Positions 15,527 through 34,141 of a stretch of 64,000 nucleotides of DNA are shown one piece after another. Both the position numbers and the translations under genes were made by a program. Below the pieces are notes generated by a model. It made no database searches and had not been told where the DNA came from. It saw only the letters and a program-made list of their open reading frames with translations. Numbering within the stretch: the first letter of the stretch is position 1; each line of letters begins with the position of its first letter. Source of the DNA: Halococcus saccharolyticus DSM 5350 (GTDB lineage: Archaea; Halobacteriota; Halobacteria; Halobacteriales; Halococcaceae); contig NZ_AOMD01000021.1 of the NCBI RefSeq assembly GCF_000336915.1, positions 124,001 to 188,000 of the forward strand. Direction: 5' to 3'.

Positions 15527-16031
15527 TGTGCTGTAGACTTTTGTATACCTGCGCACAAGTAAGTGTAATGGAAACGATGGTCACACGACGAACGAGAAGA
15601 GTGGGAAGTGCTGGTAGCGAAAACCATCTTCGACGGTCCGAACCAGATCTGTTGGTGGACGGCTATGACTCATAGACAGTCCGATACATACACGACGAAT
15701 CGGTCTATCCCGCCGAATCGGTGGTGGGCGACGCTTGACGGCGAAAGAAAACCCACGAACCAGCGATAACGCCCATGTCGACGTGTTCTGGTTCCACCGA
15801 GCGCTAGTTGTCTATGAACAGGCGCTCTGCCGCCGGTTTCTGGGTCCCACGCTCTTTGCGATGCTGGGCTCGGTCGCGTTTCTGGAATGGCGGGCACAGT
15901 GAATCCAGTTTGCCTGCGACTTCCATAGGCGTGGCCAGAGCGTCAGTACCGTCGATTCCGATGGTCGGTGGCACGGTGGTGATCGGCCAATTACCCAAAT
16001 CTTTTTATTGGTTGGATGAGTAATCCATTCA
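15527..16031. other. Intergenic region, possibly decayed coding DNA
   Basis: About 500 bases. On the minus strand short overlapping frames read protein-like pieces (GIDGTDALATPMEVAGKL, then TQKPAAERLFIDN, then WALSLVRGFSFAVKRRP) that lie in different frames, which suggests a degraded gene. I could not assign it to a family. The right end contains the TATA element of the gene at 16032. Confidence 0.4.
16002..16009 (+). promoter_or_regulatory. TATA-like element of the small membrane protein gene
   Basis: TTTTTATT is centred 26 bases before the ATG at 16032, the usual spacing for a leaderless haloarchaeal transcript. Confidence 0.45.
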
Positions 16032-16406: not shown

Positions 16407-17459
16407 TCAGCGACCAACCTCGCTCTTCGCGAACGTCCGCACCGTTGGCTGGCGGTTTTGTCTGGCTTTCATCTCATTCGTCGGGATCGTCGGCACCTCG
16501 CGCGTGAGTGCGAAAACGGAGTTCCCGTTTTCGTCCACGGCCGCGAGACGGACTTCGTAGACGTCGACGCTCGCTGGCAGTTCGAGTGTGGTACTCCCCA
16601 GTGACGAGTCGCCATCGGCATCGAATCGTTGCTGCTCGACGCGCCGGGCCCCCTCGTCGGGTTCGGCGACCAGGGCTACCCGGACCGAAGTGAGATCACT
16701 ATCGGGATCGGAGATACGCCAGTCGACGGTGACGAGAGTCGTTCCGTTCCTCGAACGATCGTCGACCGCGAACGTATCGATCGCTGGTCCTCGATCAGTT
16801 TGTCCGTCCGTTGTGATCCCCGTTGTGCTCGTTGTCGGCTCCGGCGTCGGCGATGGTGTTCGGGTCGGAGTCGGTGATGTCCGGGTCGGCGACGAAACGG
16901 TGGTCGATCGCGGTGGTTCCGCGGTCCCCGTTCGCGTCTCCTGTGGGGTCGTGGTCTGGGTTGCCGTCGCCGTCTCCGTTGCGGTCGGCGTCGTCGATGT
17001 TGTCACTGTCGTTGGCGTCGCTGTCGTGGTCCGTGTCGTCACGGACGATTCGACCGAGGTCGTCCGTTCGGGTGTCCGGAATTTCGTGGTTGGTGGTGTT
17101 GTAACGGTCGACGATCCCGTCTGCGTCGCGTTCGGTGCGGCTGTGCCGTTGGTATCGGCGATAGTACGTGTGTCGGTGGACTCGGTCTCAGTTCTGCTGC
17201 CGTCAGTTGGACTGAGCGTGCCAACGCGTCCGAGGGAGTCGTCACTTTCCTCAGGGGTATCGCCTGCCGTCCCCGTCGGAGCGGGCGTGCCATTGGTGAA
17301 CGGTGCATCCGTCGAGTCGCCCGCCAGATCCACACCGAACAATCCCGTCACGAGCGGTTGTGTGACGTAGACGAGGGCGACGATGGCGATCAGGATGGCG
17401 GCAAAGACGAACGCGTTCGGTGCTCCGTCGTCCTCGCTGGTCGGTGTGTCGTCGACCAT
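16407..17459 (-). CDS. Membrane-anchored Ser/Thr-rich surface protein
   Basis: A 350-residue protein. An N-terminal transmembrane anchor (about residues 15-36) is followed by roughly 190 residues dominated by Thr, Ser and Pro (for example TPTRTPSPTPEPTTSTTG), a typical O-glycosylated stalk. A compact C-terminal domain of about 110 residues follows (TFAVDDRSRNGTTLVTVDWR, then LVAEPDEGARRVEQQRF) that looks like an Ig-like beta sandwich. There is no signal peptidase site, so the protein is probably anchored with its stalk outside. It is a candidate acceptor for the glycosyltransferases of this island. It may share transcription with the CPBP gene upstream. Confidence 0.78.
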   Translation of the reverse strand: MVDDTPTSEDDGAPNAFVFAAILIAIVALVYVTQPLVTGLFGVDLAGDSTDAPFTNGTPAPTGTAGDTPEESDDSLGRVGTLSPTDGSRTETESTDTRTIADTNGTAAPNATQTGSSTVTTPPTTKFRTPERTTSVESSVTTRTTTATPTTVTTSTTPTATETATATQTTTPQETRTGTAEPPRSTTVSSPTRTSPTPTRTPSPTPEPTTSTTGITTDGQTDRGPAIDTFAVDDRSRNGTTLVTVDWRISDPDSDLTSVRVALVAEPDEGARRVEQQRFDADGDSSLGSTTLELPASVDVYEVRLAAVDENGNSVFALTREVPTIPTNEMKARQNRQPTVRTFAKSEVGR

Positions 17460-18479: not shown

Positions 18480-18983
18480 GTGAACGACGACCATAAGCGC
18501 CTGTTGACACAGGTACTGCTCGCCGTCCTCGTCGTTTCGGTGCTCGCCATCGTCTACTTCTCGTTCACGCCGGAGCAGCGGACCGATCCGTACACCGAGT
18601 TCTACGTGCTGGGACCGGAAGGCAACGCCAGCAACTACTCGGACAACCTCTCCGTGGGGGAGAACAGGGATCTCACCGTCGGCATTTCGAACCACGAGAA
18701 CCGGGAAATGCAGTACACGCTGGTGTTGGAACTCGACAACGAGACGCTCAATACGCGGACCGTCTCGATAGCTGACCAGGAGACGTGGGAGCGAAATCGA
18801 TCGTTCACACCCGAATCATCCGGTCGCAAGCAGCTGCAGCTTCTCCTCTACAGGGGTGAATCCGTCACTCCGGAGTTAGAACCCTATCGCACGTTGCGGT
18901 TGTGGATGACCGTCCAAGAGGCCAGTACCGCCAACAACCGACAGATTCCCGACAGCCGTACGTCCGGCCACCACAACGAATGA
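18480..18983 (+). CDS. Short DUF1616-type membrane-anchored protein
   Basis: A 167-residue protein starting at GTG 18480, with one transmembrane helix (about residues 10-29) and an external domain beginning YTEFYVLGPEGNASNYSDNL, then VGISNHENREMQYTLVLEL, which matches the C-terminal half of DUF1616 proteins. Full-length members have several N-terminal helices, so this is a single-helix version. The family is commonly found in archaeal glycan loci. The stop overlaps the ATG of the GT2 gene by four bases, so the two are translated together. Confidence 0.78.
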   Translation: MNDDHKRLLTQVLLAVLVVSVLAIVYFSFTPEQRTDPYTEFYVLGPEGNASNYSDNLSVGENRDLTVGISNHENREMQYTLVLELDNETLNTRTVSIADQETWERNRSFTPESSGRKQLQLLLYRGESVTPELEPYRTLRLWMTVQEASTANNRQIPDSRTSGHHNE

Positions 18984-19945
18984 CGATGGACCGTTCCGCT
19001 ACCACGACACACACCGAGGGCGATCCGCCAGTCGTCAGCATCGTGGTGGTGAATTGGAACAACTACGACGACACGAGCGAGTGTTTGGACACCCTCACGG
19101 AGCTCTCGTATCCGAACTACCGCGTGGTCGTCGTGGACAACGGCTCGACGGACGGCTCGGGTGAGCGCCTCGCGGCGGGGTTCGATGGATGTGAGTTCGT
19201 GTTCACCGGTCACAATCGGGGCTTCGGCGGGGGCTGCAACGCGGGGATCGAGCGTGCGCTCGCGAACGGGACCGACTACGTACTGCTGCTCAACAACGAC
19301 GCATCCGTGGCTGCCGATACCATCGACGAACTCGTGGCGGTCGCCGACGAGAGCGCCGCGGACATCGTCGGCGCGATGGTCCGCGATCAGTCCGATAAGC
19401 CGATCATCTCCCATCCGAACTGGTATCCGGACATGCTGTTTTACTCGGGCTATCGGGCCAACCTGCCGTTCGTTTCGGACTCCCGTGCGGCGTACGCCGA
19501 CCGGCGCTGGTGGGCGACCGATCGCATCGAGGGGGCGGGCGTGCTTCTCTCGCGAGCGCTCCTTCGAGACCGCCGTGACTCGGTGGGACAGTTCCTCGAC
19601 GAATCGCTGTTCATGTACTGCGAGGAGGTCGAACTCGCGCTGTGGTGTCGAGAGTACGACCGGACGAGCGTCGTCGCCGAACGCGCTCCCGTGGTCCACG
19701 ACGGCGGCAACAGCTCGAACAGAGCCTTCCAGCTCTACTACCTGACGCGGAATCGGGTGCTCATCGCTCATCGGTATCTCTCCGGACCGGCGCGGGTGCT
19801 GTTTGATGTCCTGTACGTGTGTTCGAGGCTCGCCATTGCGGGACGTCACGTCAAGCGAGGGGCGCGGAGGGAAGCGAGAGCGATCCTTCGAGGACTCGCC
19901 GACGGGTATCGACACATCGAAGGACAGGTCGAACGCCCCAGTTGA
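18980..19945 (+). CDS. Glycosyltransferase family 2 (rhamnosyltransferase-like)
   Basis: A 321-residue GT-A transferase. The start VSIVVVNWNNYDDTSECLDT, the DNGSTDGS nucleotide-binding loop, the NRGFGGGCNAGI motif and the LLLNNDASV metal-site equivalent are the pattern of WbbL-like rhamnosyl- and related transferases. A catalytic EE pair appears in YCEEVELALWCREY near residue 217. I use the ATG at 18980 because it overlaps the DUF1616 stop (ATGA); an upstream in-frame ATG at 18902 lies inside that gene. dTDP-rhamnose could be the donor, since the full rml set is in this window, but that is inference. Confidence 0.87.
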   Translation: MTMDRSATTTHTEGDPPVVSIVVVNWNNYDDTSECLDTLTELSYPNYRVVVVDNGSTDGSGERLAAGFDGCEFVFTGHNRGFGGGCNAGIERALANGTDYVLLLNNDASVAADTIDELVAVADESAADIVGAMVRDQSDKPIISHPNWYPDMLFYSGYRANLPFVSDSRAAYADRRWWATDRIEGAGVLLSRALLRDRRDSVGQFLDESLFMYCEEVELALWCREYDRTSVVAERAPVVHDGGNSSNRAFQLYYLTRNRVLIAHRYLSGPARVLFDVLYVCSRLAIAGRHVKRGARREARAILRGLADGYRHIEGQVERPS

Positions 19946-20021
19946 TGGGAAATGAGCTACGTCAGCAGTGTCTGACGAGAGCGACGAACAGTTATTATCC
20001 TTCCTCGACAAATAACAGACG

Positions 20022-20369
20022 ATGCGAGCCATCGTGCATTTCTCTGTTGGCGTCTCCGGAATGTTGCTGATCCTCCTGGTCGTCGAGCGTTCGTTCCGTC
20101 AACAGTTCCTCTTGATATTCGCGAGCGGGCTATGGGCGGTCATCCCGGACCTGGGCTGGCTTTTGCTGCGGGTGGGAACGCCCGAGGCGTCCGTACTCTG
20201 GAAACAGGTGTTCAACTCGGTAGTTGGGTACCTGTTCTGGTTTCATCCCCTCTTGGACGCCATGGAACCTGAAAACAGAGTGTACGAAATGGGGGGAGCG
20301 TTCTCCCTCTTGGGGGTTGCCGTCGTCACGTTCTACCTGCTCAACGACTGGGACGCCGACCGAATCTGA
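20022..20369 (+). CDS. Small membrane protein, possibly YdjM-like
   Basis: A 115-residue protein with three or four hydrophobic segments and conserved-looking His/Asp residues: H6 in MRAIVHFSVG, IPDLGWLLLRVG near residue 41 and FWFHPLLDAMEP near residue 73. This spacing recalls a short version of the YdjM-like membrane hydrolase at 13709-14278, but the match is weak. It lies between a GT2 gene and the first sulfatase-like gene, all on the plus strand, which suggests a glycan-related role. Confidence 0.6.
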   Translation: MRAIVHFSVGVSGMLLILLVVERSFRQQFLLIFASGLWAVIPDLGWLLLRVGTPEASVLWKQVFNSVVGYLFWFHPLLDAMEPENRVYEMGGAFSLLGVAVVTFYLLNDWDADRI

Positions 20370-20483: not shown

Positions 20484-20506
20484 TTGGCTCGTCGAAAATG
20501 CGTGAC

Positions 20507-21919
20507 ATGGCAGATAACGTCGTCCTCATAGTCCTCGACACGGTCCGAAAGGACTACTTCGAGGAGTTCGCCCCACGTCTCCAGTCGCTTGCCGACGTGT
20601 CGTTCGAACAGTGTCGGTCGGCGAGCTCGACCAGCGTGCCGAGCCACGCCAGCATCATCACTGGAGAACTCCCCCATCAGAACGGCATCCACAGCTTCAA
20701 TCCCGACTACACGGGATTGACGCGATCGGATACATTCCTGGGCGATCTTCCCGATCACCGGCTGCTCGGCGTGAGCGCGAACACGTTTGCGGGCTCGCCG
20801 TTCGGGTTCGACCGACTGTTCGATGCGTTCACCGATGTCTCGTGGACCAGACGTCTCTCCGAGGGGATGGACGTCAAGGAGTACGCGATGATGACCGACA
20901 GCGACGGAGTGCAGTTCTACACCGACTTCCTCGCGACGGCGCTCCGCCGCGACCACACGCTCGCGACACTCATGAACGCCGGACTGGCACAGCTCGACAT
21001 GCTCTTCTCGCACCTCCCGCTCGCCCGTCTTCTGGACGACGGTGCGGCGACCGCGCTCGAAACGGCACGTCGGACGGTGGACGAATCGACGGAGCCATTC
21101 TTCCTCTTTTGCAATCTCATGGAGGCACACACACCCCATCAAAACACTCGCGGATACGATCGATCGCTCCACGACGTGCCCAACGGCTGGAGTTCGACGA
21201 ACGACCTCGATCAGTGGGACATCACGCTGCACGGCTCCACCGGCCACGAGACGGACATCGACCGGTTCCGAGGGCTGTACGGTGCGTCCATCGACTACCT
21301 CGATCGGCAGGTGGCGGCGTTCATTGAGGACGTCCGCGAGAACACTCGCGGTGAGACACGGTTTGTCGTCACCGCCGATCACGGGGAGAATCTCGGATTT
21401 GCGGCGGATGAGGGACTTTTCGGACACAAGAGTAGCCTGACCGAGTCGCTTCTCCACGTTCCGCTCTGCATCGTGAACCCGCCGGACGGGTACGACGAAC
21501 ATGAACGTCGCTACTTTTCACACCTCGAACTCGGGACGTTGATCGCGGGGCTGGCTCGTGGAGAGACGCCGGACGTGTTCGCGGACCGCATCCCAGCGGA
21601 GCTCGTCGGCACGACCAACGTTCCCGACATGCCCAACGAGGAACGCACGTTCTGGGAGCGCGCGATCAGGTGTGTCTACGACGGCGAGACGAAAGTGGTC
21701 TGGGACTCGCTCGGCGAGCGCGCGGCCTACTCGCTCGATCACTCGCGACCCTGCTGGCAGGAACGACGGGACGGCGACGTCACCATCCCCAAGTGGGAGG
21801 CACAGTTTTTCGACGAAGAGATCGGGACATACAAACGACGGGTCGATGCGACTGCTGACGTCTACGCCGAGGTCGACGAGTTCACTCTGGAACGGCTGGA
21901 GACGCTGGGCTATCGCTGA
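20507..21919 (+). CDS. Sulfatase-like hydrolase/transferase (alkaline phosphatase superfamily)
   Basis: A 470-residue AP-superfamily enzyme. The first metal-ligand segment is VVLIVLDTVRKD (D11). The nucleophile region is STSVPSHASIITG, where S43 occupies the position of the modified Cys/Ser of sulfatases and H47 replaces the Arg of C/S-x-P-x-R. The second metal segment is VVTADHGENLG near residue 291, followed by FGHKSSLTESLLHVPL. The C-terminus ends ERLETLGYR, a tail common in sulfatase-like proteins. It is less similar to the five operon enzymes than they are to one another. No signal peptide is visible, so the site of action is open. Confidence 0.88.
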   Translation: MADNVVLIVLDTVRKDYFEEFAPRLQSLADVSFEQCRSASSTSVPSHASIITGELPHQNGIHSFNPDYTGLTRSDTFLGDLPDHRLLGVSANTFAGSPFGFDRLFDAFTDVSWTRRLSEGMDVKEYAMMTDSDGVQFYTDFLATALRRDHTLATLMNAGLAQLDMLFSHLPLARLLDDGAATALETARRTVDESTEPFFLFCNLMEAHTPHQNTRGYDRSLHDVPNGWSSTNDLDQWDITLHGSTGHETDIDRFRGLYGASIDYLDRQVAAFIEDVRENTRGETRFVVTADHGENLGFAADEGLFGHKSSLTESLLHVPLCIVNPPDGYDEHERRYFSHLELGTLIAGLARGETPDVFADRIPAELVGTTNVPDMPNEERTFWERAIRCVYDGETKVVWDSLGERAAYSLDHSRPCWQERRDGDVTIPKWEAQFFDEEIGTYKRRVDATADVYAEVDEFTLERLETLGYR

Positions 21920-24255
21920 GACTCAGCGGATCCATTGTGGTAGTAGACGGTGCTCTCTCCCGTCGTGTACACTTTGCTCCGCTGTGGGAGCTCCAACTCA
22001 TCAAGCGTCGTCGCTGGCGGTCCGTACTGGTTCGTCCAGACGCCGTCAAGGGCCCAGTTGTGACCGACCAAGAACACGTATCCCGGTTCGACACCCGGTG
22101 CGGCGAGTTCCGAGAGCCCGAGCGGTTTTCCGGCTATCGGTTCGATGTCGGTCCACGCTCTACTGGCCCCAGTGATGAGCTGGGGACGATACCAATCTGT
22201 CTGCCGGTTCGCGAACGTGTCGCCGTAGACTTCGATGCCCTCGTGATGGTCGATCATCCAGACGTGTGCCGCGATGTCCGTCTCTTTATATATCATCGTC
22301 TGGGCTCGTGGTGAGTCGGTCTCTGCAAGCCCGTTCTGGTTGGGGACGTTACTCGGGGCGAACCCGCCGAACAGAAGGGTGGCGGCGACGCCGCTGTTGA
22401 GGACGAACAGCACTAGCAACAGGATGCCAAAGACCTGTAGCGCCTCTCGATCCCTGTTCAGGATATGGGATTCGATCGCCCCGATGCCGACGACCGCGAA
22501 GATCACGGTCGTGACGTACGTTATCATCAGCGGCCGCCCGCCGCCCCAGTTGCGCACCATGATCGTCATCCCGAAGATTCCCATCATGGCAGCCGCGAGC
22601 GCGAAGTAGTGGTCGTCGAACTCGATGTCCTCGTTCGATAGCCGACGGTAGAGAACGATGAGCAAGCCGATCGCGATGAGCAGGCCGATCACGAGGTAGA
22701 CGTACTTCGACAACTGGATCGAGAGCGTTCCGTAGTTCTTCTGAATCCGTGCCGCCGTTCGTCCGGAGAACGTCGACCCACCGAGCAACTGGATGTACGA
22801 CTCCCGTGCGTGTTTCGGGAGGAGGTCGAACTTCCTGCCCCCATTCATGTACATGTACCACGTCAACGACGAAACCGAGTAGAAGACCACGAGACTCAGG
22901 GTGATCCGGGTTCTGGAGCGGGTTGCCACCAGTCGTGGTGTCACACTGTCGTCGATCACACCCCGAATATCCACTCCAGCGAGAGCGTCGAACCATCGGA
23001 GAGCAGCGAGCAGTACCAGCGTCACCCCGAAGGCCGCAACGACGTAGTAGGAGGTCCCATAGTGGGACACGACGATGCCGAGGACGAACGCCAGTCCCAG
23101 CGCGGAGGCGACGACGCGCGGGGAATCCCGGTCGCTGATCGCCAGGCCGAACAGCGCAAGGAAGAGTACGGGTGTTGCCGCCCGTCCCGCCGTCGGGTAT
23201 TGCCGGAAGAACGGGTGTGCAAACACGAACACCGAGGCTGCGAGAAAGGCGCGATAGGAATCGGTGTACCGCCGGAACGTGAGAAAGAGCGCGAGCGGAA
23301 TGAACGACACGAAGAAGGGGTTGATGACGTTGTACTGAGTGAGGATGTGAACCCCCGACAGTCGGGCGTAGATCGGATAGAGGACCCCGTTCGGGAGGAG
23401 TTCCGCCGACAGGAGATCCGATCGCACGACACCCGGAGTCCACTGCCTGGCTCGCCAGGTCCGTATCGCGTACGGCTGCCCGCTGTAGCCACTGAACTTC
23501 CAGATCGCCTTGTGATAGAGCACCGCAAGCGCCATCATCCACATTCCGAACGAGTGCCACCGTGTTGGAACCCGTTTCGTGACGATCAGCAAGGGAACCA
23601 ACGCCACGGCGACGAGAACGACGACGAGCAGGAAGGCGTTCCCCGTTCGGTTGAGAAGTTCCACGCCCACGATGCTGAGCAATGGGAGGAGGAGAAGGGC
23701 GAGTGGCACCGGCGAAATACGGGAGACGACCAGGGAGGGAACCGACGCCATCCACTCGAACGCACCGTCATCGCCGTCGTGGGACAGAAACAGGCTCGCC
23801 GGGATCGTCACCGTCCCGTCACGTCGCATCCGGAGCACCAACGCCGCGAGAGTCACATCGAACACCGTCATTGCCGCCGCGAGAGGCACCACCGCCATCG
23901 GCGCGTCGTGGCCGACGAGGGGAAGCGTGACGTTCACGACGAACCCGATCGCCATCACCGACAGCAGGCTTATGCCGAAGGCGTATGTCACGTGTCTCGC
24001 ACCGAGCGAACCGTCCGCGTAGACGAACAACACAGCCAGACCGCCAGGGACGAACGTGAGCGCGAGAACCACTACCGGCGCGCGTAGCTGATCCGGAATC
24101 GGCACACCGAACTCTTGGAGCCCGATCACGACCAGCGCGAGACCGTGGAGTCCGAGCAGCGCCGCAACAGCGGTCCGTTTGTCGATGTCGGTCGGGCCAT
24201 CTGCCCACGCCCGAACTGGCCCGACGTCGCCGGCGAGCAGCGTCTTCACGCTCAT
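21910..24255 (-). CDS. Large polytopic membrane protein, DUF2206/glycosyltransferase-like
   Basis: A 781-residue protein with about 14-16 transmembrane helices and a C-terminal soluble domain of about 120 residues (from roughly residue 655, MIYKETDIAAHVWMIDHHEG). Architecture and local patterns such as RNWGGGRPLMITY resemble DUF2206-type archaeal proteins, which look like GT-C glycosyltransferases or polymer-handling membrane enzymes. A clear catalytic DxD is not visible in the first loop. It is the last gene of the eight-gene operon (4-base overlap with the upstream GT4) and its end overlaps the convergent sulfatase-like gene by ten bases. A lipid-linked sugar transfer or polymerase role is plausible. 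Confidence 0.75.
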   Translation of the reverse strand: MSVKTLLAGDVGPVRAWADGPTDIDKRTAVAALLGLHGLALVVIGLQEFGVPIPDQLRAPVVVLALTFVPGGLAVLFVYADGSLGARHVTYAFGISLLSVMAIGFVVNVTLPLVGHDAPMAVVPLAAAMTVFDVTLAALVLRMRRDGTVTIPASLFLSHDGDDGAFEWMASVPSLVVSRISPVPLALLLLPLLSIVGVELLNRTGNAFLLVVVLVAVALVPLLIVTKRVPTRWHSFGMWMMALAVLYHKAIWKFSGYSGQPYAIRTWRARQWTPGVVRSDLLSAELLPNGVLYPIYARLSGVHILTQYNVINPFFVSFIPLALFLTFRRYTDSYRAFLAASVFVFAHPFFRQYPTAGRAATPVLFLALFGLAISDRDSPRVVASALGLAFVLGIVVSHYGTSYYVVAAFGVTLVLLAALRWFDALAGVDIRGVIDDSVTPRLVATRSRTRITLSLVVFYSVSSLTWYMYMNGGRKFDLLPKHARESYIQLLGGSTFSGRTAARIQKNYGTLSIQLSKYVYLVIGLLIAIGLLIVLYRRLSNEDIEFDDHYFALAAAMMGIFGMTIMVRNWGGGRPLMITYVTTVIFAVVGIGAIESHILNRDREALQVFGILLLVLFVLNSGVAATLLFGGFAPSNVPNQNGLAETDSPRAQTMIYKETDIAAHVWMIDHHEGIEVYGDTFANRQTDWYRPQLITGASRAWTDIEPIAGKPLGLSELAAPGVEPGYVFLVGHNWALDGVWTNQYGPPATTLDELELPQRSKVYTTGESTVYYHNGSAESQR

Positions 24256-25427
24256 CGATCCGGTTCACCTCCAGATCGCCGCGAGTACAACGTACCGACC
24301 GCATCCGCCCGTCGCGACCACTCGAACTCCATCGCCGCGTCCCGCGCGCGCTCGGCGAGGCGTGCCGAGAGTTCGTCGTCCTCGAGCGCGAGCCGAACAC
24401 GCTTCGCGAAGCTGCCTTTCGAGTAGGCGGTCATCGCCGCGCGGCGCTCGACGAGGTGCTCGACGATCGAGGGGCCGGGCGTGACGACCATCGGCTTCCC
24501 CAACGCCGCGTAGTAGAATAGCTTTACCGGCGACGACGACCGTTGAATGGCCGAGACGACCTGTGGGTTGATCAGGACCTGTGACCGCGCCAGCAGGGCG
24601 AACGCTTCGTGGTCCGGGAGGCGGCCGGTGAGTCGGAGACCGTCGACTCCCTCACCGAGCCGCTGTAAACGCCGGTGCTGGGCTCCATCACCGATGACCA
24701 CGAGCTCCGATACCGCTGGCAGACGAGCGACGGCGACGAGTGTCTCGATATCGACCTTCGGGTGAAGCGTCCCGAGGAAGGCGACGCGTCCGGGGACCGT
24801 CGATTCCGTGGCCTCGGGAATCGTCGTCGGGAAGTAGCCGTTCGGAACGACCGTCAGCCGCTCGTCCGGAACTCCCCACGCACGCATCGCGTCCCGCATC
24901 ACGTCGGAAACGACGATGACGTGGGCCGCGCGCTCGACGGCTCTGCGTTCCAGTCGCCGGACGCCGCGCTTGAACGCGGGGGCAAGGCGTGTGTCGACGT
25001 GGTCGAATCGGGAGTACGCGAGGTCGTGCATGTCGAGGACATAGTCCTGACACCCACGGAACGTCCCGACGCCAGCGAGCGTCGAGTGTTCGATCTGGAG
25101 GATCGCGTCGCGGTCTCGGGCGACCCGCCGCGCCGCCGCGGCGACTCTCGCGGCCCTGATGAGTGGGTTCGAGAGCCGAACAGCGACGGGTTCGACGTTC
25201 ACTGCCGCCAATCGTTCCGGGAGGGCCCCCGATGGCTCGGGAACGACGAGGGTCACATCGTGGCCTCGTTCGGCGAGGCCCTGAGCGAGCGCCGAGACGC
25301 GCTCGGTGCCGCCGCTCGGTTCGCCCATATCCCCGCCGTGCGCGATACACAGCGCTCGTTGTCCGGAATCCGGGCTCCAGTCGTCACCGGGCGACGGTGA
25401 CAGCGACTGCTCCGATCGATCACTCAT
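24252..25427 (-). CDS. Glycosyltransferase family 4
   Basis: A 391-residue GT-B enzyme. The first 20 residues are a polar extension, followed by ALCIAHGGDMGEPSGGTERV with the acceptor-side glycine loop. The donor domain shows VAFLGTLHPKVDIETLVAV and VVIGDGAQHRR. The usual E-x7-E region is altered to VSAIQRSSSPVKLFYYAALG. The start overlaps the upstream sulfatase-like gene by eight bases and the stop overlaps the membrane protein by four. It should transfer a sugar to a glycan later modified by the operon enzymes. Confidence 0.86.
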   Translation of the reverse strand: MSDRSEQSLSPSPGDDWSPDSGQRALCIAHGGDMGEPSGGTERVSALAQGLAERGHDVTLVVPEPSGALPERLAAVNVEPVAVRLSNPLIRAARVAAAARRVARDRDAILQIEHSTLAGVGTFRGCQDYVLDMHDLAYSRFDHVDTRLAPAFKRGVRRLERRAVERAAHVIVVSDVMRDAMRAWGVPDERLTVVPNGYFPTTIPEATESTVPGRVAFLGTLHPKVDIETLVAVARLPAVSELVVIGDGAQHRRLQRLGEGVDGLRLTGRLPDHEAFALLARSQVLINPQVVSAIQRSSSPVKLFYYAALGKPMVVTPGPSIVEHLVERRAAMTAYSKGSFAKRVRLALEDDELSARLAERARDAAMEFEWSRRADAVGTLYSRRSGGEPDR

Positions 25428-26730
25428 TGCCGACCACGCCCCGATTCGGACGGCACTCGACCGCCTCCCGTCGTTCCACCGCAGTCGTTCGCGCCGCGTC
25501 GGCGATGGTGACCCGTTCGTGTCGATCGTCGTGCTGTCGCTCGGCCAGCGGTCGCAACGACGAGGCCACCGCCGGGAACTGGGCGGCGACGCTCGTCCGT
25601 TCGTACGGGTCCGACGCGAGATGGTACAGTTCTTCGCCGTCCGTATTCAGTATGTACCGCCAGTGTCGCCCACTGACCGCCGTTTTCTCGCCGTTCTCGG
25701 TCGTGGACGTGACGAAATCGGTACCGAACGCAACCGGATCGAACGACCGGCGCTCCGCGAGCGCAGTAATCACGTTCGGAAGCCGCCGGAGCGAGGTCGG
25801 CGATCGAATGCGTGCTCGCTGCCCGGCGTTCGCAACGAGGAACGGCACGTGCAGGTTCTCCCCGTAGAGCTGGCGTTCGTGGCCGTACGTGCCGTGCTCG
25901 CCGAACGCTTCGCCATGATCGCCATGCACCACGAGTATCGGATCGTCGTCCGCGCAGTCGTGCCACAGCCGGTCGATGAACGCGTCCGTCGACCGGACGC
26001 TGTCGCGATAGGCCTGCCGGAGCCGGGTCTCGACGCGTCCCGGGATGGAGCCCTCGCGGGAGAGCTCGGTGAACGATGCGTAGTACATCCCGAGCGCCGA
26101 GCTCTCGCGGCGGAAGCGACGCGGTGTGATGTACGGCTGGTGGGTGTCGAGGAGAAACACCCACAGAAAGACGGGGCGTGAGGCTGCCGCCAGCCCGGTC
26201 GTGATGGTGTCGTAGAAATCCGTCCACCTGATGAACCACTCGCGCTTGTTGTGCCAGAAGAGGCGGTCGCCGAGCCGCGTACCGTGCAGTCCCCGATCGA
26301 TTCGCTTGAACAGCGGCGGCCCGTACGATTCGAGCGTCTCGCCGTTCACCGCGACGAACCGATCGAACCCCGCGTCGAACGCGGTGCCCTGCGTCCAGGG
26401 GTTCGCCGTGACGCCGATCGTCGCGTACCCTCGGTCGCGAAGTCGCTCCGCAACCGACCGGTGGCGCTGCATGTGACGACGGATGCGGGCACGCTGGCGC
26501 TGCCAGTAATCCTCGCCATCGTCTTCCGCGGGTCGCATCGGTTCGCCGGTGAACGACGCGGGCATCGAAGACGGCGTTCGCGGTCCCGGTGCGATGGCGT
26601 TCTCGAAGACGACTCCCTCCTCGGCCAGCGTATCGAGCGTCGGCGTCAGGGTCGCGGGGTCGCCGTCGAGGAACCCGCAGTGGTCCGCCCGAAGGCTGTC
26701 GACGGTCACCAGCACGATGTTTCGCGTCAT
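25420..26730 (-). CDS. Sulfatase-like enzyme, operon paralogue 5 (Thr52)
   Basis: A 436-residue AP-superfamily enzyme. The first metal segment is LVTVDSLRADHCGF (D11). The active-site region is PGPRTPSSMPASFTG, with T52 at the position of the formylglycine precursor and Met where C/S-x-P-x-R has Arg. The second metal segment is VVHGDHGEAFGEHGTYGHE near residue 272. It is the most divergent of the five operon copies: the YFGFDRGFDRFEDF block of the others is here AFDAGFDRFVAV. There is a four-base overlap with the upstream paralogue and eight with the GT4. No export signal is visible. Confidence 0.88.
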   Translation of the reverse strand: MTRNIVLVTVDSLRADHCGFLDGDPATLTPTLDTLAEEGVVFENAIAPGPRTPSSMPASFTGEPMRPAEDDGEDYWQRQRARIRRHMQRHRSVAERLRDRGYATIGVTANPWTQGTAFDAGFDRFVAVNGETLESYGPPLFKRIDRGLHGTRLGDRLFWHNKREWFIRWTDFYDTITTGLAAASRPVFLWVFLLDTHQPYITPRRFRRESSALGMYYASFTELSREGSIPGRVETRLRQAYRDSVRSTDAFIDRLWHDCADDDPILVVHGDHGEAFGEHGTYGHERQLYGENLHVPFLVANAGQRARIRSPTSLRRLPNVITALAERRSFDPVAFGTDFVTSTTENGEKTAVSGRHWRYILNTDGEELYHLASDPYERTSVAAQFPAVASSLRPLAERQHDDRHERVTIADAARTTAVERREAVECRPNRGVVGNE

Positions 26731-27959
26731 CGCTCCCGGACGACCTCCCGTGCCGCCTCGCCGATGGTTCGTTGCTCGGCCATCGACGCGTCGAACTGCG
26801 CCAGCACGCCCCGGCAGAGCGCGCCGAGCTGGTCGTTCGAGACTTGAGACTGCTCGTCACGGCCGATATCGTACAGCTCTTCGCCGTCGCCGTTCCGGAG
26901 GTATTTCACCCGTCCACTGTCGATGGCAGCGGTCTCGTCGGTCCTCGCTGCGACGAACGGATTCTCGATGTCGGGCACCGCTCCCGTCTCGGCGATACCG
27001 GTCAGGAGGCGTGGAATCGCTCGCAGGGATATCGGCCGGTCGATTCGGCGGGACGGGACGCCGGAAACGACGAGTGGCACATGAATGTTCTCTCGATACA
27101 ACTGGTGTTGGTGCGTGTACGTCCCGTGCTCGCCGAACGCCTCGCCGTGGTCGCCGTGGACGACAATTACTGTGTCCTCCACGTCCGACCGCAGCCGCTC
27201 GAAGAACGCATCCGTGTACCGGATCGAGTCGTCGTACGCCGTCACCAGCTGTTCGTGGACCCGCGGACTGTAGGGCGTGTGCTGGTCTTCGAGGTAGAGC
27301 CGAAGGTTGGCCTCGTATTCTCGCCACCGCGACTGGCTTCGATAGGTGTCGCCGGTCAGGTACGGGAAGTGGACGTCCAGCAGGAACACCCAGAGGAAGT
27401 ACGGCTTTTCGGCCCGTTGCGCCCACGAAACGATGTCGTCGTACATCGCGCTCCACGGCTTGAACACGTTTTCGCGCTGCATCCAGCTCAACACGAGCCG
27501 CGTCGCCGCGAGTGCCTTCGATCCACCCTCTTCGAGCATCCGGCTCCAGATCGAACTCGACAGGTCATCACCCATGAAATCCTCGAATCGGTCGAATCCC
27601 CGATCGAAGCCGAAGTACCGCGAGGTCCACGGGTTGGGTGTGAACGCGCCTGTCGCGTAGCCGCGCCGGGACAGTTTCTCCGCGAGCGTGTCGTGAGCCA
27701 GGACGTGGTCCCTGATCTCTGTGCGGGTTGAGGCGAGTTCGTCGCCGCTCCCGGCCCCGGTCGGGTACGTGCCCGTCATCGTTGCGGGGAGTGATTCGGG
27801 CGTTGTCGGTCCCGGTGCGATGGCGTTCGTGAAGACCGCACCCTCCTCGGCCATCACATCGAGGGCGGGGGTGGTCTCGTGCTCGTAGCCCATGAACGAA
27901 CAGTGATCCGCACGGAAACTGTCGACGGTCACCAGCACGATGTTCGGTTGTTCACTCAT
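26727..27959 (-). CDS. Sulfatase-like enzyme, operon paralogue 4 (Thr53)
   Basis: A 410-residue AP-superfamily enzyme from the ATG at 27959, which overlaps the upstream stop by four bases; an in-frame upstream ATG would add 30 unrelated residues. Metal segment one is VTVDSFRADHCSFMGYE (D13). The active-site region is GPTTPESLPATMTG with T53 in the nucleophile position. The block SRYFGFDRGFDRFEDFMG lies near residue 123, and metal segment two is VVHGDHGEAFGEHGTYTHQ. Like its neighbours it lacks the C/S-x-P-x-R signature for maturation by formylglycine-generating enzyme. Confidence 0.88.
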   Translation of the reverse strand: MSEQPNIVLVTVDSFRADHCSFMGYEHETTPALDVMAEEGAVFTNAIAPGPTTPESLPATMTGTYPTGAGSGDELASTRTEIRDHVLAHDTLAEKLSRRGYATGAFTPNPWTSRYFGFDRGFDRFEDFMGDDLSSSIWSRMLEEGGSKALAATRLVLSWMQRENVFKPWSAMYDDIVSWAQRAEKPYFLWVFLLDVHFPYLTGDTYRSQSRWREYEANLRLYLEDQHTPYSPRVHEQLVTAYDDSIRYTDAFFERLRSDVEDTVIVVHGDHGEAFGEHGTYTHQHQLYRENIHVPLVVSGVPSRRIDRPISLRAIPRLLTGIAETGAVPDIENPFVAARTDETAAIDSGRVKYLRNGDGEELYDIGRDEQSQVSNDQLGALCRGVLAQFDASMAEQRTIGEAAREVVRER

Positions 27960-29197
27960 AGTTCGGCCACCTCGATCTCCCGCGCCGTTCCGGCGATCCG
28001 CTCGCGTTCGGAGTTCGTCAGCCGGCGAGTTGATTCGAGGCTGTCCCACACGTCCGAGAGGTCGACTCCCGACTGTAGGTTCAACTCCTCCGGATCGGCG
28101 ACCAGATCGGAAAACGCCACCCCTGCTCCGTCGTGGAGTAGTTTCCAGTCCTGTCCTCTCACCGCCGCCTTCTGCGCCGTTGACGTGCGTACCCGCGGCC
28201 GGGTGAACCGGGAGCGGTCGAGAGTTCTGGACGAACTCGCGAGTTCTTCGAGCAGGAACGGGAGTACCCGCAACGACACCGGCTCCTCGATTCGCTCACG
28301 CACGCCGGCGTTCCAGACGACCAGTGGGACGTGGACGTTCTCTTCGTATAGGTGACTGCCGTGTCCAAACGATCCGTGTTCGCCGAACGCCTCGCCGTGA
28401 TCCGCGTGGAACACGTAGATCGGGTTCGCCTCGGATAGGTCGTCGGTGAGCCGCCGCACGAACTCGTCGACGTGTCGGATCGTTCCGTCGTAGAGCGAAC
28501 GCACCGTCTGAACGCTCTCACCGGTGGGCGTACGATCCGAGAAGTTACTGCTGGTCCAGTTGGCGCGGTACATACTGGTCGCTGAGATGCCGTTTCGGTG
28601 TCGATCCGGCGGACGGTACGGCCAATGTGGTTCGAGCAGGAAGACCCAGAGGAAGAAGGGGTCGTTTGTGGCAGCGACGCTCTCGATTAGCTCTTCGTAG
28701 TAGTCCTCCCATGTCATCGAGACATCGCCCCGACCGACCAAGTTGAGGCCGAACCGGAGTCCGGCGACGAACCGGCCCCGCAGCCACCGCGAGACGATTG
28801 CGGACCGGAGTCGTGCGCTCGTGTCTAGGAAGTCCTCGAACCGATCGAATCCCCGGTCGAACCCGAAGTACCGCGACGTGAACGGGTTCGGCGTGAAGCC
28901 GATCGTCGAGTAGCCGGTCGCCGAGAGCCGTTCGGGGACCGTCCGCCCGCGCGAGAGGTGGTCACGGATGTGGTCACGGCTGGCGACGCCGTGGTGAACG
29001 TCGGCGATGCCTTCACCCGTAAACACCGCGGGCATTGACTCGGGCGTCGATGGTCCAGGAGCGATGGCGTTTTCGAAGACGACACCTTCCGTAGCCATCG
29101 CGTCGAGGATTGGTGTGGTCTCGCGCTCGTAGCCCATGAACGAACAGTGATCCGCACGGAGGCTGTCGACAGTCACGAGGACGATGTTCCGACTCAT
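27956..29197 (-). CDS. Sulfatase-like enzyme, operon paralogue 3 (Thr51)
   Basis: A 413-residue AP-superfamily enzyme. Metal segment one is LVTVDSLRADHCSFMGYE (D11); the active-site region is GPSTPESMPAVFTG with T51 as the predicted nucleophile. The block SRYFGFDRGFDRFEDFLD lies near residue 117, and metal segment two is FHADHGEAFGEHGSFGHG. By the motifs visible here it is one of the copies nearest to the paralogue at 30369-31610. It overlaps both neighbours by four bases (27956-27959 and 29194-29197). Confidence 0.9.
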   Translation of the reverse strand: MSRNIVLVTVDSLRADHCSFMGYERETTPILDAMATEGVVFENAIAPGPSTPESMPAVFTGEGIADVHHGVASRDHIRDHLSRGRTVPERLSATGYSTIGFTPNPFTSRYFGFDRGFDRFEDFLDTSARLRSAIVSRWLRGRFVAGLRFGLNLVGRGDVSMTWEDYYEELIESVAATNDPFFLWVFLLEPHWPYRPPDRHRNGISATSMYRANWTSSNFSDRTPTGESVQTVRSLYDGTIRHVDEFVRRLTDDLSEANPIYVFHADHGEAFGEHGSFGHGSHLYEENVHVPLVVWNAGVRERIEEPVSLRVLPFLLEELASSSRTLDRSRFTRPRVRTSTAQKAAVRGQDWKLLHDGAGVAFSDLVADPEELNLQSGVDLSDVWDSLESTRRLTNSERERIAGTAREIEVAEL

Positions 29198-30372
29198 TGG
29201 GCGACTGCCTCGTAGTAGCGCTCCAGCTCCCGGACGATCGTGGTCCAGTCGTGGTTCGTCTCGATCAGCCGTCGAGCGTTTCGTGCGTAGCGTCGCTGTC
29301 GCTCCGGGTCCGAGAGCAGTTCGAGCGTTGCGGTTGCGAAGGACGACGCGTCCTCGGCGACGGAGACGTGCCGTCCGTCTTCCACGTCGATACCCTGGAT
29401 GCCGACTGGCGTGGTCACCATCGGCTTGCCCATCGCCATCGCGTGCAGCGCCTTCATCCGGACGCCGGTTCCGACGCGGATGGGAATCACGACCACCGAC
29501 GCACGGTCGATGTAGGTATGGATGTCCTCGACGAATCCGGTGACGGTGACGCCCTCGACCGCGTCGAGTGCCGCGACTGCGTCCGTGGGATCCTTACCGA
29601 CGATCTCCACCACTGCATCGGGCAGCTCCGCCCGGATGCGTGGGAGCACCTCCTCGACGAACCAGACGGCAGCGTCCTCGTTCGGGTGGTAGTCCATACT
29701 CCCGAAGAAAGTGATTCGATCGGGGTCGGAATCGACCGTCGCCGGCTCGAACTGCGAGAGATCGACGCCCGCCGGAAGGACCTCGATCCGCCCACCGGCA
29801 CCGTACTGCCGGAGTCGGTCGCGGTCCTCGGCCGTGATCGTCAGCGTGAGGCCACTCTCCTGTGGAATAGCTCCCTCGAACTGCCTCGTCTTTCGATACT
29901 GGAGAAACGCGTACGCTGCCTTGGCTGGATTGTTCGTATACCGTGCGTACTGCCGATAGATCGTGGACTTCACGTTGTTGAATCGAATGACGGTGGGCGT
30001 GTCGTCGCCGAGAGACGAGGCCAGATGCGAGGTCTGGAGTGCGTGCAGATGCACGATGTCCGCCCGGTCGAGGGTCGCCTCGACGGCTGCGGTGTACTCG
30101 GTCGTGCGTGCTTTCATCACCGGTAACGGCTCCCTCGTGAAGACGTTTGCAGCGAGGTTTCGCGGCGTCCGGTTCGGCAGCCCGGCAACGGGCTGGACGG
30201 TACAGCCGACCGCCGACTCCATCGCTCGCGCCTGGTCGGTATCGTCACAGTACGAGATCAACTGGAGGTCGTGCCCCCGATCGACGAGTCCCTCGATGAT
30301 TCCGAAGGTCTCTGCCCGTCCTCCCGAGTTCGGCGGGTAGGGTATCCTGTGTGTGCAGAAGCAGACGTTCAT
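29194..30372 (-). CDS. Glycosyltransferase family 4 inside the sulfatase-like operon
   Basis: A 392-residue GT-B transferase starting at ATG 30372 (MNVCFCTHRIPYPPNSGGRA), which overlaps the upstream gene by four bases; an earlier in-frame ATG at 30456 adds 28 Arg-rich residues overlapping the neighbour. The HRIPYPPNSGG start, LLTITAEDR-like centre and donor-domain segments FFGSMDYHPNEDAAVWFVEE and VIPIRVGTGVRMKALHAMAM resemble the Stp1/exosortase-associated sugar transferase subgroup. It is embedded between paralogous AP-superfamily genes, so its product glycan is probably their substrate or an intermediate. Confidence 0.88.
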   Translation of the reverse strand: MNVCFCTHRIPYPPNSGGRAETFGIIEGLVDRGHDLQLISYCDDTDQARAMESAVGCTVQPVAGLPNRTPRNLAANVFTREPLPVMKARTTEYTAAVEATLDRADIVHLHALQTSHLASSLGDDTPTVIRFNNVKSTIYRQYARYTNNPAKAAYAFLQYRKTRQFEGAIPQESGLTLTITAEDRDRLRQYGAGGRIEVLPAGVDLSQFEPATVDSDPDRITFFGSMDYHPNEDAAVWFVEEVLPRIRAELPDAVVEIVGKDPTDAVAALDAVEGVTVTGFVEDIHTYIDRASVVVIPIRVGTGVRMKALHAMAMGKPMVTTPVGIQGIDVEDGRHVSVAEDASSFATATLELLSDPERQRRYARNARRLIETNHDWTTIVRELERYYEAVAQ

Positions 30373-31610
30373 CCTTCGACGAGCCTCCGTGCGGCCATCG
30401 TTATTGCCTCTCGCTCCCGTTCGGACGCGGACACGACGCCGAGCCGGCGACGACACAGCCGCTCCAGCTCCGGGTTCGACACTGGCGTCTCCTCTCCGGC
30501 AGCGAGAGCATACATCTCCATATCCGTTCGAGAGTTGATAACCGTTACCCGCCGTCCACGCAGCGCGGTCTGCTCTCCCGCACGAGTTCTGGCGACGGCG
30601 AACGGATCGGTAGTCGAGAAAGACATCGGGTCGTTACCGTTGCTCGCGTCCGTCAGCATCGTCGGGAGCGCGGCGAGCGAAACCGGCTCGGTCACCGTTC
30701 GGTCGGGAACGCCGTCGAGGACGAGCGGGACGTGGACGTTCTCCTCGTACAGGTATGGTTCGTGGCCGTAGATCCCGTGCTCGCCGAACGCTTCACCATG
30801 ATCGCCATGCACCGCGATCACGGCGTCAGTGTCAGCCCGAAGTCGGTCGAGAAACGCATCGGTGTAGCGAATCGAGTCGTCGTACGCCGTGAGCAACTGC
30901 TGACGCAGGGCGGGATCGAAGGCGGATTCCTTGTCCGCTCGCCAGAACCGGTAGTTCGCGTACACCATCCGCCACCATCTCAACCGTCGGTACGCCTCGC
31001 TCGCCAGATACGGAACGTGGGGGTCCATGAGGTGAACCCAGACGAAGTACGGCTCCTCAACCGACTCGGTCCACTCGGTGACTTCGTCGTAGTAGTCCTC
31101 CCACGGTTTGAACACCTCCTCGCGCTGCCACATGTTCAGGACCATGCGCACGGCGAACGTGAGATCGCTCTCCCGGGCTAGCTGTGAGACGAGACGACGG
31201 AATCCCCGGCGGACGAACGTGTCGAGGTAGTCCTCGAACCGGTCGAACCCCCGATCGAACCCGAAGTACCGCGACGTGAACGGGTTCGGCGTGAACGCGG
31301 CGGTAGCGTATCCCCGCCGCCGGAACGTCTCGGCCAGCGTGTTCCGTGTCTCCATGTGTCGGCGGATGTTCGCACGAAGTTCGTCGACATCGCCCGTATC
31401 CCCACCGCCGACCGGGTCGTGGCCGGTCATGACTGTCGGCATTGATTCAGGTGTCGACGGCCCGGGGGCGATAGCGTTCTCGAAGACGAGACCGTCGTCG
31501 GCCATCGCGTCGAGGGTGGGGGTGGTCTCGCGCTCGTAGCCCATAAACGAACAATGGTCCGCCCGGAGGCTGTCGACGGTCACCAGCACGACGTTTCGGC
31601 GGTCAGTCAT
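30369..31610 (-). CDS. Sulfatase-like enzyme, operon paralogue 2 (Thr53)
   Basis: A 413-residue AP-superfamily enzyme. Metal segment one is LVTVDSLRADHCSFMGYE (D13), the active-site region is GPSTPESMPTVMTG with T53, the block SRYFGFDRGFDRFEDYLD is near residue 123, and metal segment two is AVHGDHGEAFGEHGIYGHE near residue 272. Its YERETTP and PSTPESMP segments are identical to those of the paralogue at 27956-29197, so the two look like a recent duplication pair, with the GT4 between them. Four-base overlaps exist on both sides. Confidence 0.9.
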   Translation of the reverse strand: MTDRRNVVLVTVDSLRADHCSFMGYERETTPTLDAMADDGLVFENAIAPGPSTPESMPTVMTGHDPVGGGDTGDVDELRANIRRHMETRNTLAETFRRRGYATAAFTPNPFTSRYFGFDRGFDRFEDYLDTFVRRGFRRLVSQLARESDLTFAVRMVLNMWQREEVFKPWEDYYDEVTEWTESVEEPYFVWVHLMDPHVPYLASEAYRRLRWWRMVYANYRFWRADKESAFDPALRQQLLTAYDDSIRYTDAFLDRLRADTDAVIAVHGDHGEAFGEHGIYGHEPYLYEENVHVPLVLDGVPDRTVTEPVSLAALPTMLTDASNGNDPMSFSTTDPFAVARTRAGEQTALRGRRVTVINSRTDMEMYALAAGEETPVSNPELERLCRRRLGVVSASEREREAITMAARRLVEG

Positions 31611-32908
31611 AGCGTCCCCTCGACGAGCGCTGTCGTGTCGTCGATCGAGCGCTTCTCGCGTTCGGTCGCGGTATGGTTGGCGAGGATCGCCTCGAACACG
31701 CTGGCCAACTCTCCGTGGTCGTCGACGACGTTCACCTGCTCATCCGGGTCGAGTCTGAGATCGTAGAGCTCCCGTCGGTTCGGATCGCGGATGAACTTGT
31801 GGTCGCGCGTCCTGATGGCGGTCCGGCGGTCGTCGCCGACCAGCACTTTCGAGATCGTCCACGGCCGTTCGGCTGCCGCGTGGAGCGACGGCGCGGGGAA
31901 TCGATGAGTTGCCTCGGCCAACTCCGCGATCGTCGTCGGAATCGACCGGAGAGGAACCGGCGCGTCGACCGTTTCCTGTCTCCCAGCATTCGCTATCACC
32001 AGAGGCACGTGCACCAGACTCTCGTAGAGGTGTGGTTGGTGGCCGTACCGTCCGTGTTCGCCGAACTCCTCGCCGTGGTCCGCATGAACGACGAAAACGG
32101 GGTCATCGTCCCGAAGATCCGCTTGCAAGCGGTGGAGAAAGCGGTCGGCGTGCCGGATCGAGTCGTCGTAGAGATCGAGAAATCGCTGGCGTTCGTCCGG
32201 GCCGAAATCAGGCTCCCAGCCTGCGTTGAGCATTCGCCAGTACTGGCCGAACGAGCGGACGAGATCGCCCCGCGAACTCCACTGCCGGCTCGCTGCCGGC
32301 GGGAGCCATGGGTGATGCGGATCGAGCAACAGCACCCAGAGGAAGTACGGCTCCGGTGCCCGCTCACACCAGTCGTGGATCAGATCGTAGTAGTCGTCCC
32401 AGGGGCGGAGTGTCTCCTCACGACGGACGAGGTTGCGAGCCAGTCGGAGAGACGTCGCGGCTCCGCCACCCTCGATGGAACGCCGGAAGATCCGGTTCCA
32501 CGCCCGCTCGGCCGTCCCACGGTCCTCGTGGAGGAAGTCCTCGAACCAGTCGAACCCCCCGTCGAACCCGAAGTAACTCGACGCCGGCGGGTTCGGTGAC
32601 ACCGCTCCGGTGGCGTATCCCGCCGCCGAGAGCGCCTCGGCCAGCGTCTTTCGGGAGGTCACCTGTTCGCGCTGCTCCTCGTTCAGCCCGATCTCCGGGC
32701 TAGCGAGCGAAAACGTCCCGGTCATGACGCTCGTCATCGAGGCGATCGTTGGGACCCCGGAGGCGATGGCGTTCTCGAAGACGACGCCCTCCGCGGCCAT
32801 CGCGTCGAGGGTTGGTGTGGTCTCGCGCTCGTAGCCCATGAACGAACAGTGGTCCGCACGGAGGCTGTCCATCGTGACGAGAACGACGTTTCGTTTCTCT
32901 GCATCCAT
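31607..32908 (-). CDS. Sulfatase-like enzyme, operon paralogue 1 (Thr54), first gene of the operon
   Basis: A 433-residue AP-superfamily enzyme from ATG 32908 (MDAEKRNVVLVTMDSLRAD, D14); an ATG three codons upstream (32917) is equally possible. The active-site region is ASGVPTIASMTSVMTG with T54 in the nucleophile position and no Arg. The family block is modified to SSYFGFDGGFDWFEDFL near residue 126. Metal segment two is VVHADHGEEFGEHGRYGHQ. It is the promoter-proximal gene of the eight-gene operon; I could not find a convincing TATA element in the 300 bases upstream. Confidence 0.88.
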   Translation of the reverse strand: MDAEKRNVVLVTMDSLRADHCSFMGYERETTPTLDAMAAEGVVFENAIASGVPTIASMTSVMTGTFSLASPEIGLNEEQREQVTSRKTLAEALSAAGYATGAVSPNPPASSYFGFDGGFDWFEDFLHEDRGTAERAWNRIFRRSIEGGGAATSLRLARNLVRREETLRPWDDYYDLIHDWCERAPEPYFLWVLLLDPHHPWLPPAASRQWSSRGDLVRSFGQYWRMLNAGWEPDFGPDERQRFLDLYDDSIRHADRFLHRLQADLRDDDPVFVVHADHGEEFGEHGRYGHQPHLYESLVHVPLVIANAGRQETVDAPVPLRSIPTTIAELAEATHRFPAPSLHAAAERPWTISKVLVGDDRRTAIRTRDHKFIRDPNRRELYDLRLDPDEQVNVVDDHGELASVFEAILANHTATEREKRSIDDTTALVEGTL

Positions 32909-33214
32909 CGAGATCACTCCCGCTCGTCGGCTTTTCGACTGTGCGTCCCCGTGACATCGGCTGTGATACTACTTGCAGACCGCCATCTATCCCAGAGAAG
33001 CGAAGATAGCCAGTAGAGCATCGACCCAGCCCGGGTTCGAACGGCGACAGTAGTAACCATTACACTCACCACATCGTATGAATACGGATTGAAATAAATA
33101 TACTGTCTAGAGGTCTAGCCACGTTCGTCGTGGGTGGCGTTGTTGTGGACGAATCCTTTGAAGCGGTTCGAGGCGTGAACGACCGCTCCGTCCGGCGGTA
33201 GTGTTCGACGGACA
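32909..33214. other. Intergenic region upstream of the eight-gene operon
   Basis: About 300 bases between two minus-strand genes. It must hold the operon promoter, but no clear TATA box was found. Near 33090-33118 the sequence is AT-rich with a short direct repeat (GTCTAG at 33106 and 33114). No gene is supported here. Confidence 0.4.
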
Positions 33215-34141
33215 TCACAGGTATCCCAGTTGCTGGAGTCGCGCTTCGACGTTCTCGGACGAGGCCGAACTCGATTGAGGGGTGATACTGGGGTCGTACT
33301 CTCCGAGATCGGTCGCCGAGGTTTTCACCCACGGGACGTTCTTCACGACCGGGTGGAGACAGCCGGCGGGGTGGTCGTAGATGCCCCACTCGCCGATGGC
33401 GTCCCCGTGGTCGGCCGTGATGGCGACGGTGTCGGCGTCCAGATTCCGGAGCAACAGTTCGACCTGATCGAGCACCGTCCTGAGTGTGTCGCGGTAGGCC
33501 GACCAGAACGTCTCGCGGTCGATTTTGCCTTTTCGCAGCGCATCGACGACTGTCTCGCCGCCATCGCGTCCGAACGGGTCCGCCGCGAACGAGTCGACGC
33601 CTTCGGTACCGACGAACGGGTGGTGTGGCTGCATGTAGTGAACGATCAGAAAGTCCGGGGCGTACTCCCGACCGACGGCGATGGCGCGATCGGTGACGGG
33701 GTCGGGCGGGACGGTTCCGAGTTCGTCGTCCCAGCCGTAGTGCCACACCTCGTCGAGCACTTGGAAATCGGCCGCGTCGAGTACCTCGGCCGAGAAAGCG
33801 TTCCCCGTGACGTACGCCGTCTCGCGGGTTTCGGCCGCGTACTCCGTTGTGAACGTCTTCACCATCCACTCTTCGGACATGCTACCGACGGAGCCGACTG
33901 ATTCGACGCCACTCACGAACGCGTACTCGTCGGCTACCTCACGGAGGAGATCGACGCGACAGGCGTCGAGTACGATGAGGACATCCCACTCGCGGTCGTA
34001 AACGTTCACACCCCGTGGAACGTGCCAGCCGAGGTGTCGCCATGCGCCGGCGTAGAGTTCGTAGGTGCTGTCCCGCAATCCGTCGGAGGGGTTCTCGCGT
34101 ATCCGCGTCGTTGTACGCCTCACCCAGTCAGCGAACGTCAT
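33215..34141 (-). CDS. Short alkaline-phosphatase-superfamily protein (DACR type)
   Basis: A 308-residue protein of the sulfatase-like fold but shorter than its neighbours. The first metal segment is VLIVLDACRVDLL (Asp near residue 53) and the second is AITADHGDAIGEWGIYDHP near residue 243. The nucleophile is not certain; SVGSVGSMSEEWM near residue 82 is the likely region and holds Ser but no Cys. The end is ARLQQLGYL, the tail shared with the 20507 enzyme. The DACR form is a separate subfamily often found in haloarchaeal glycan loci. It is not overlapped with the eight-gene operon and may have its own promoter. Confidence 0.82.
   Translation of the reverse strand: MTFADWVRRTTTRIRENPSDGLRDSTYELYAGAWRHLGWHVPRGVNVYDREWDVLIVLDACRVDLLREVADEYAFVSGVESVGSVGSMSEEWMVKTFTTEYAAETRETAYVTGNAFSAEVLDAADFQVLDEVWHYGWDDELGTVPPDPVTDRAIAVGREYAPDFLIVHYMQPHHPFVGTEGVDSFAADPFGRDGGETVVDALRKGKIDRETFWSAYRDTLRTVLDQVELLLRNLDADTVAITADHGDAIGEWGIYDHPAGCLHPVVKNVPWVKTSATDLGEYDPSITPQSSSASSENVEARLQQLGYL

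Follow-up and report, generated by a model that had tools for sequence, protein, structure and literature searches.

An overlapping haloarchaeal operon with five AP-superfamily paralogues: a candidate module for building and decorating a surface glycan

Introduction

What might a haloarchaeon do with five paralogous enzymes of sulfatase-type fold, all encoded in one operon whose every gene overlaps the next? The question is raised by the minus strand of a 64,000-nucleotide stretch of the Halococcus saccharolyticus DSM 5350 genome (contig NZ_AOMD01000021.1, positions 124,001 to 188,000; hereafter the window, in whose numbering positions are given), for which a preliminary description had proposed a fixed-ratio machine that builds and modifies one glycan. 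Sulfate is a frequent component of haloarchaeal surface glycans. The first enzymes that put it there were not named until 2025 and have a fold associated with sulfate removal. These are Agl30 (VNG1056C, membrane) and Agl31 (VNG1057C, soluble fraction) of Hbt. salinarum, AP-superfamily N-glycan sulfotransferases whose function was proven with deletions, with mass spectrometry and by moving both into Hfx. volcanii, where they work; they modify different sugars, and deletion of VNG1063H, the third AP gene of their cluster, left sulfation unchanged (PMC11980604).

Results

Eight overlapping genes flanked by further AP-superfamily genes

The operon spans 21910-32908 and comprises eight ORFs with overlaps at all seven junctions, of the 4-bp ATGA type at six (31607-31610, 30369-30372, 29194-29197, 27956-27959, 26727-26730 and 24252-24255) and of 8 bp only between S5 and GTb (25420-25427). 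The preliminary description had placed all eight ORFs and seven overlaps exactly, and its inventory of five AP-superfamily paralogues, two GT4 transferases and one membrane protein is borne out by Pfam, which finds PF00884 in S1-S5 (118-136 bits), GT4 in GTa and GTb, and DUF2206 in the last gene, the membrane protein. Beyond that inventory, two further AP-superfamily genes, S6 and S7, flank the operon. The features to which we refer are these:

31607-32908, minus strand: S1, first gene, soluble AP-superfamily (PF00884) paralogue with Thr at the nucleophile position (PTIASMTSVMTG), ATG start at 32908, SD-like GGAGTGATCT upstream
30369-31610, minus strand: S2, AP-superfamily paralogue, T53 at the nucleophile position, AlphaFold model with pLDDT 90.9
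29194-30372, minus strand: GTa, GT4 glycosyltransferase, ATG start at 30372, TIGR03087-like but below cut-off
27956-29197, minus strand: S3, AP-superfamily paralogue, its SHR40 counterpart in the same locus but outside the operon (L001:3412-4692)
26727-27959, minus strand: S4, AP-superfamily paralogue, ATG start at 27959
25420-26730, minus strand: S5, AP-superfamily paralogue (PF00884)
24252-25427, minus strand: GTb, GT4 glycosyltransferase, member of the conserved core, overlapping S5 by 8 bp
21910-24255, minus strand: DUF2206 membrane protein with 13 hydrophobic segments and weak fold matches among GT-C enzymes (PglB, ArnT, OST)
20498-21919, plus strand: S6, convergent AP-superfamily gene with Ser at the nucleophile position (SVPSHASIITG), its 3' end overlapping the DUF2206 gene by 10 bp
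33215-34141, minus strand: S7, AP-superfamily gene lying upstream of S1, short and divergent
32909-33214, no strand: leader between S7 and S1, in which AT-rich TATATTTATTT, read by eye, is a candidate TATA element
14279-15556, minus strand: GT4 about 6.4 kb from the operon end, a homologue of which adjoins S1 in several other genomes

By a crude gene call, overlaps of 1-15 bp occur at 3 of 27 same-strand neighbours elsewhere in the window, compared with 7/7 in the operon, and those of S1/S2, S2/GTb and GTb/DUF2206 are also present in other genomes. As operons are generally tight, such overlaps argue for one transcription and translation unit rather than for any special machine. A 48-codon ORF at 32914-33060 was considered as a ninth gene and rejected, as it is not conserved 5' of S1 in relatives.

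A threonine at the sulfatase nucleophile position

The label 'sulfatase-like' used in the preliminary description is right for the fold, to which both PF00884 and Foldseek attest, but wrong at the catalytic residue. With the S2 model, which begins at the first core strand, Foldseek retrieves sulfatases, phosphonate monoester hydrolases and YejM, the best match being a solved arylsulfatase (E 8.8e-19). In all five paralogues, however, a Thr stands where [CS]xPxR has its formylglycine Cys/Ser; this Thr is invariant across 39 relatives, and HMMER aligns it both with the Cys of the solved arylsulfatase and with the Thr of LptA (T53 of S2 stands opposite the LptA Thr in CGTSTAHSLPCMFS). Since a formylglycine sulfatase requires [CS]xPxR and Thr is not convertible to formylglycine (PMC5066984), S1-S5 are not formylglycine sulfatases. 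The genome's sole formylglycine-generating-enzyme match lies on another contig, where the strongest PF00884 match of the genome is some 2 kb away.

Also invariant in the aligned relatives are D13, D270, H271, H198 and H283 (S2 numbering), and pairing S2 with MCR-1 gives D13/E246, T53/T285, D270-H271/D465-H466, H198/H395 and H283/H478, where the two single-His pairs follow from sequence position rather than from superposed structures. In MCR-1, Thr285 is phosphorylated and metal-bound, and His395 and His478 are extra ligands or neighbours (PMC5031297); with its Thr and this ligand set, the S1-S5 active site has the look of a Thr-nucleophile transferase. Among NCBIfam models, several for phosphoethanolamine transferases hit S1-S5 but stay under cut-off, the highest score being 55.5 bits where 500 is required; arylsulfatase-type models likewise match below cut-off. 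No TM segment was found in any of the five by hydrophobicity. Separately, S2 has a Cys at position 20 (RADHC), two residues past an invariant Asp, that is kept in 39/39 aligned relatives.

Five old lineages and a conserved core

The paralogues are only 38-51% identical to one another. In a tree of 61 proteins each of them sits in a clade of its own, next to a sister from SHR40, a genome of a different family (f4, as against f1 for this genome), at supports of 95/92, 100/99, 100/99, 98/83 and 100/97; an origin by recent tandem duplication was rejected on this separation into well-supported old lineages. Gene order in SHR40 is identical for S1, S2, GTa, S4, S5, GTb and DUF2206, and its S3 lies about 4 kb upstream of the operon amid homologues of S6 (59% identity) and S7 (64% identity).

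When the gene order was sought in other haloarchaeal genomes, the core proved to be syntenic across families rather than scattered. S1-S2-GTb-DUF2206 is found in Halorientalis pallida, Halapricum and the genomes G003, G114 and G137, and in all but Halorientalis a GT4 immediately precedes S1, overlaps it by 4 bp and is 46-52% identical to the GT4 at 14279-15556 of the window. The conserved core in several haloarchaeal families is thus GT4-S1-S2-GTb-DUF2206, and S3-S5 and GTa are accessories to it, so that copy number is not fixed. Of 293 genomes surveyed in the order, 59 have strong S1-S5 profile matches; relatives carry 1 to 5 copies, most genomes of the same genus have none, and only SHR40 equals the five copies in one locus seen here. 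This variability counts against a fixed-ratio machine, as do the position of S3 outside the SHR40 operon and the absence of the genes from most of the genus, and that part of the preliminary description is not supported. Its remark that five such paralogues in one archaeal operon had not been described agrees with the literature searched, in which we found no such description. Outside haloarchaea, S1-like Thr-type AP genes follow an epimerase-like gene in a WOR-3 locus (L007) and adjoin GT and DUF2206 homologues in a Methanophagales locus (L012).

A possibly GT-C-like membrane protein in a polysaccharide region

The model of the DUF2206 protein, of moderate quality (pLDDT 72), finds PglB, DPY19, OST and ArnT as its top structural matches; these are mostly GT-C enzymes, with E 2.7e-3 and TM ~0.3, none reaching E 0.001. 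On this modelled fold the protein is likeliest, and we hold the view loosely, to be a GT-C-like transferase or polymerase that would use a lipid-linked sugar.

Between 34 and 47 kb the window encodes GT2 enzymes, a Polysacc_synt flippase, RmlA/RmlB/RmlD-like proteins and epimerases, a GT4, an AglJ/dolichyl-P-hexose-transferase-like protein and an integrase. The genome's aglB lies on the same contig about 100 kb from the operon, and the locus is therefore probably not the main N-glycan cluster. The integrase is of phage type (47313-48605, minus strand), sits on the far border of the polysaccharide genes and might have a part in how patchily the locus is distributed. On the other side, a 946-aa protein (10454-13294, plus strand) matches G8 and the CEMIP beta-helix, both known as domains of hyaluronan-related proteins in eukaryotes. 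Two proteins encoded near the operon (16407-17459 and 18884-20032, both minus strand; 350 and 382 aa) gave no match in Pfam, NCBIfam or PHROGs, nor did a PHROGs search of the membrane and unknown genes give any.

Relatives of S6 and S7 in Halobacterium

S6 has Ser in SVPSH where sulfatases carry [CS]xPxR. Genes of S6 and S7 type, which flank the operon here, stand side by side in a Halobacterium-genus locus (L085:4976-7396). The three AP genes of that contig (contig 17 of genome G064) were considered as Agl30, Agl31 and VNG1063H and dropped, as the published primers match nothing there; nor did those primers match any of the Halobacterium-genus genomes examined. One frame of the VNG1063H qPCR primer reads VHYFQPH, which fits the S7-type motif VHYMQPH, and VNG1063H is on this sequence likeness probably of S7 type. 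Another Halobacterium-genus genome (G072) has an S7-type AP gene with VHYLQPH about 5 kb from aglB (L110:5716-6831), probably related to VNG1063H.

Sulfate activation

Profile searches of this genome, whose negatives are no proof of absence, returned no strong APS kinase match, no PF01747 ATP sulfurylase, no CysD above cut-off (only sub-threshold CysD-like matches) and no P-loop Sulfotransfer_3 gene. Without the last of these, sulfation would call for an enzyme of another type. The same lack of recognisable sulfate-activation and Sulfotransfer_3 matches is seen in the Halobacterium genome G064, whose bacteriorhodopsin is identical to the query over the matched 260 residues. Activation may follow a divergent route, or else the AP-fold enzymes draw on a different donor. 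Strong APS kinase matches occur in only about 20 of the 293 genomes and show no link to AP arrays; a formal correlation of the two was abandoned, weak P-loop matches having made the tally useless. Several haloarchaea likewise show no recognisable canonical sulfate activation, even though sulfated glycans are made in this group. An exception is G121, in which an APS kinase and a P-loop sulfotransferase lie about 1 kb apart on one contig.

Discussion

That this operon is one unit for building and modifying a glycan, as the preliminary description had it, is supported by its surface-polysaccharide setting and its conserved core order. We would put at roughly even odds (a probability of about 0.5) the fuller reading that it is a module for building and decorating one lipid-linked surface glycan, in which S1-S5 are AP-fold transferases, most likely of sulfate. 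In such a module GTa and GTb would add sugars at the cytosolic side, and the soluble S1-S5, with a metal-activated threonine, would attach an anionic group (sulfate most likely) to the glycan, each perhaps serving a different position as Agl30 and Agl31 each do. After membrane translocation the GT-C-like DUF2206 protein might then act as transferase, ligase or polymerase.

Sulfate is favoured because its transfer is the sole tested function that we found for soluble AP-fold proteins encoded in glycan loci of haloarchaea, and by this analogy it is about an even bet for S1-S5. The likeness to Agl30 and Agl31 is one of fold, sulfatase-type annotation, setting in a haloarchaeal glycan-assembly locus and the presence of more than one enzyme, the Agl sequences having entered the comparison only as a few primer-encoded peptides; with Agl31 the five also share solubility, in that no TM segment is predicted. 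The differences are that the Agl proteins number two, both of proven function, whereas S1-S5 are five and share an overlapping operon, and that the Agl genes lie inside an aglB cluster. Consistent with a glycan role are the operon partners (two GT4s and a membrane protein), the flippase, nucleotide-sugar and AglJ-like genes nearby, and the S6- and S7-type relatives that both this genome and SHR40 keep beside the array. Against sulfate stand a Thr nucleophile typical of phosphodiester-type AP enzymes, the unrecognisable canonical activation pathway, and VNG1063H, an AP gene of the Agl30/Agl31 cluster without effect on sulfation when deleted. The most specific version, five cytosolic Thr-nucleophile AP-fold sulfotransferases with one site each and a donor outside the canonical APS/PAPS route, we regard as doubtful.

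The Thr nucleophile makes phosphoryl-type transfer a serious rival, one that we consider unlikely but rank above the other alternatives. S1-S5 would then be soluble relatives of EptA/LptA/MCR, placing a phospho-alcohol or phosphate on the glycan via a phospho-threonine. The alignment of T53 with the LptA Thr, the fit of the metal and second-site ligands to MCR-1, and the sub-cut-off phosphoethanolamine-transferase matches all point this way. But the known members are anchored by an N-terminal TM domain, carry their catalytic domain outside the cytoplasm and act on lipid A, whereas S1-S5 lack a TM segment, score far below the family cut-offs and find their best PDB and fold matches among sulfatases and phosphonate monoester hydrolases; moreover, phosphatidylethanolamine, the donor, is to our knowledge not a usual haloarchaeal lipid. 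The GPI ethanolamine-phosphate transferases PIGN, PIGO and PIGG are AP-superfamily paralogues, each of which decorates its own residue of a shared glycan. They offer an analogy only, by description, being eukaryotic, membrane-bound and specific for phosphoethanolamine.

It is improbable that S1-S5 are largely redundant copies kept by dosage or drift, with no five-position logic. The range of 1 to 5 copies and the many genomes of the same genus without the genes would suit redundancy, but the divergence of the five clades, their intact catalytic residues and the SHR40 orthologue of each do not, and the survival of all five old lineages in both families speaks for distinct specificities and fits five of them. 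Least probable of all is that S1-S5 are hydrolases (sulfatases or phosphodiesterases) for glycan trimming, remodelling or sulfate scavenging: they share fold and active-site layout with the S1 formylglycine sulfatases (PF00884, SulfAtlas S1), choline sulfatases and phosphonate monoester hydrolases, and arylsulfatase-type models match them below cut-off, but they have Thr for [CS]xPxR, no formylglycine-generating enzyme is encoded at the operon, and a cytosolic place within a biosynthetic operon is ill-suited to scavenging.

A warning follows for annotation, as many archaeal 'sulfatases' may be biosynthetic transferases. If the sulfate-transfer reading of the module is true, the operon, conserved and holding as many as five of these enzymes, would illustrate how an archaeon can place several distinct modifications on a single glycan, and the identity of the sulfate donor would become testable.
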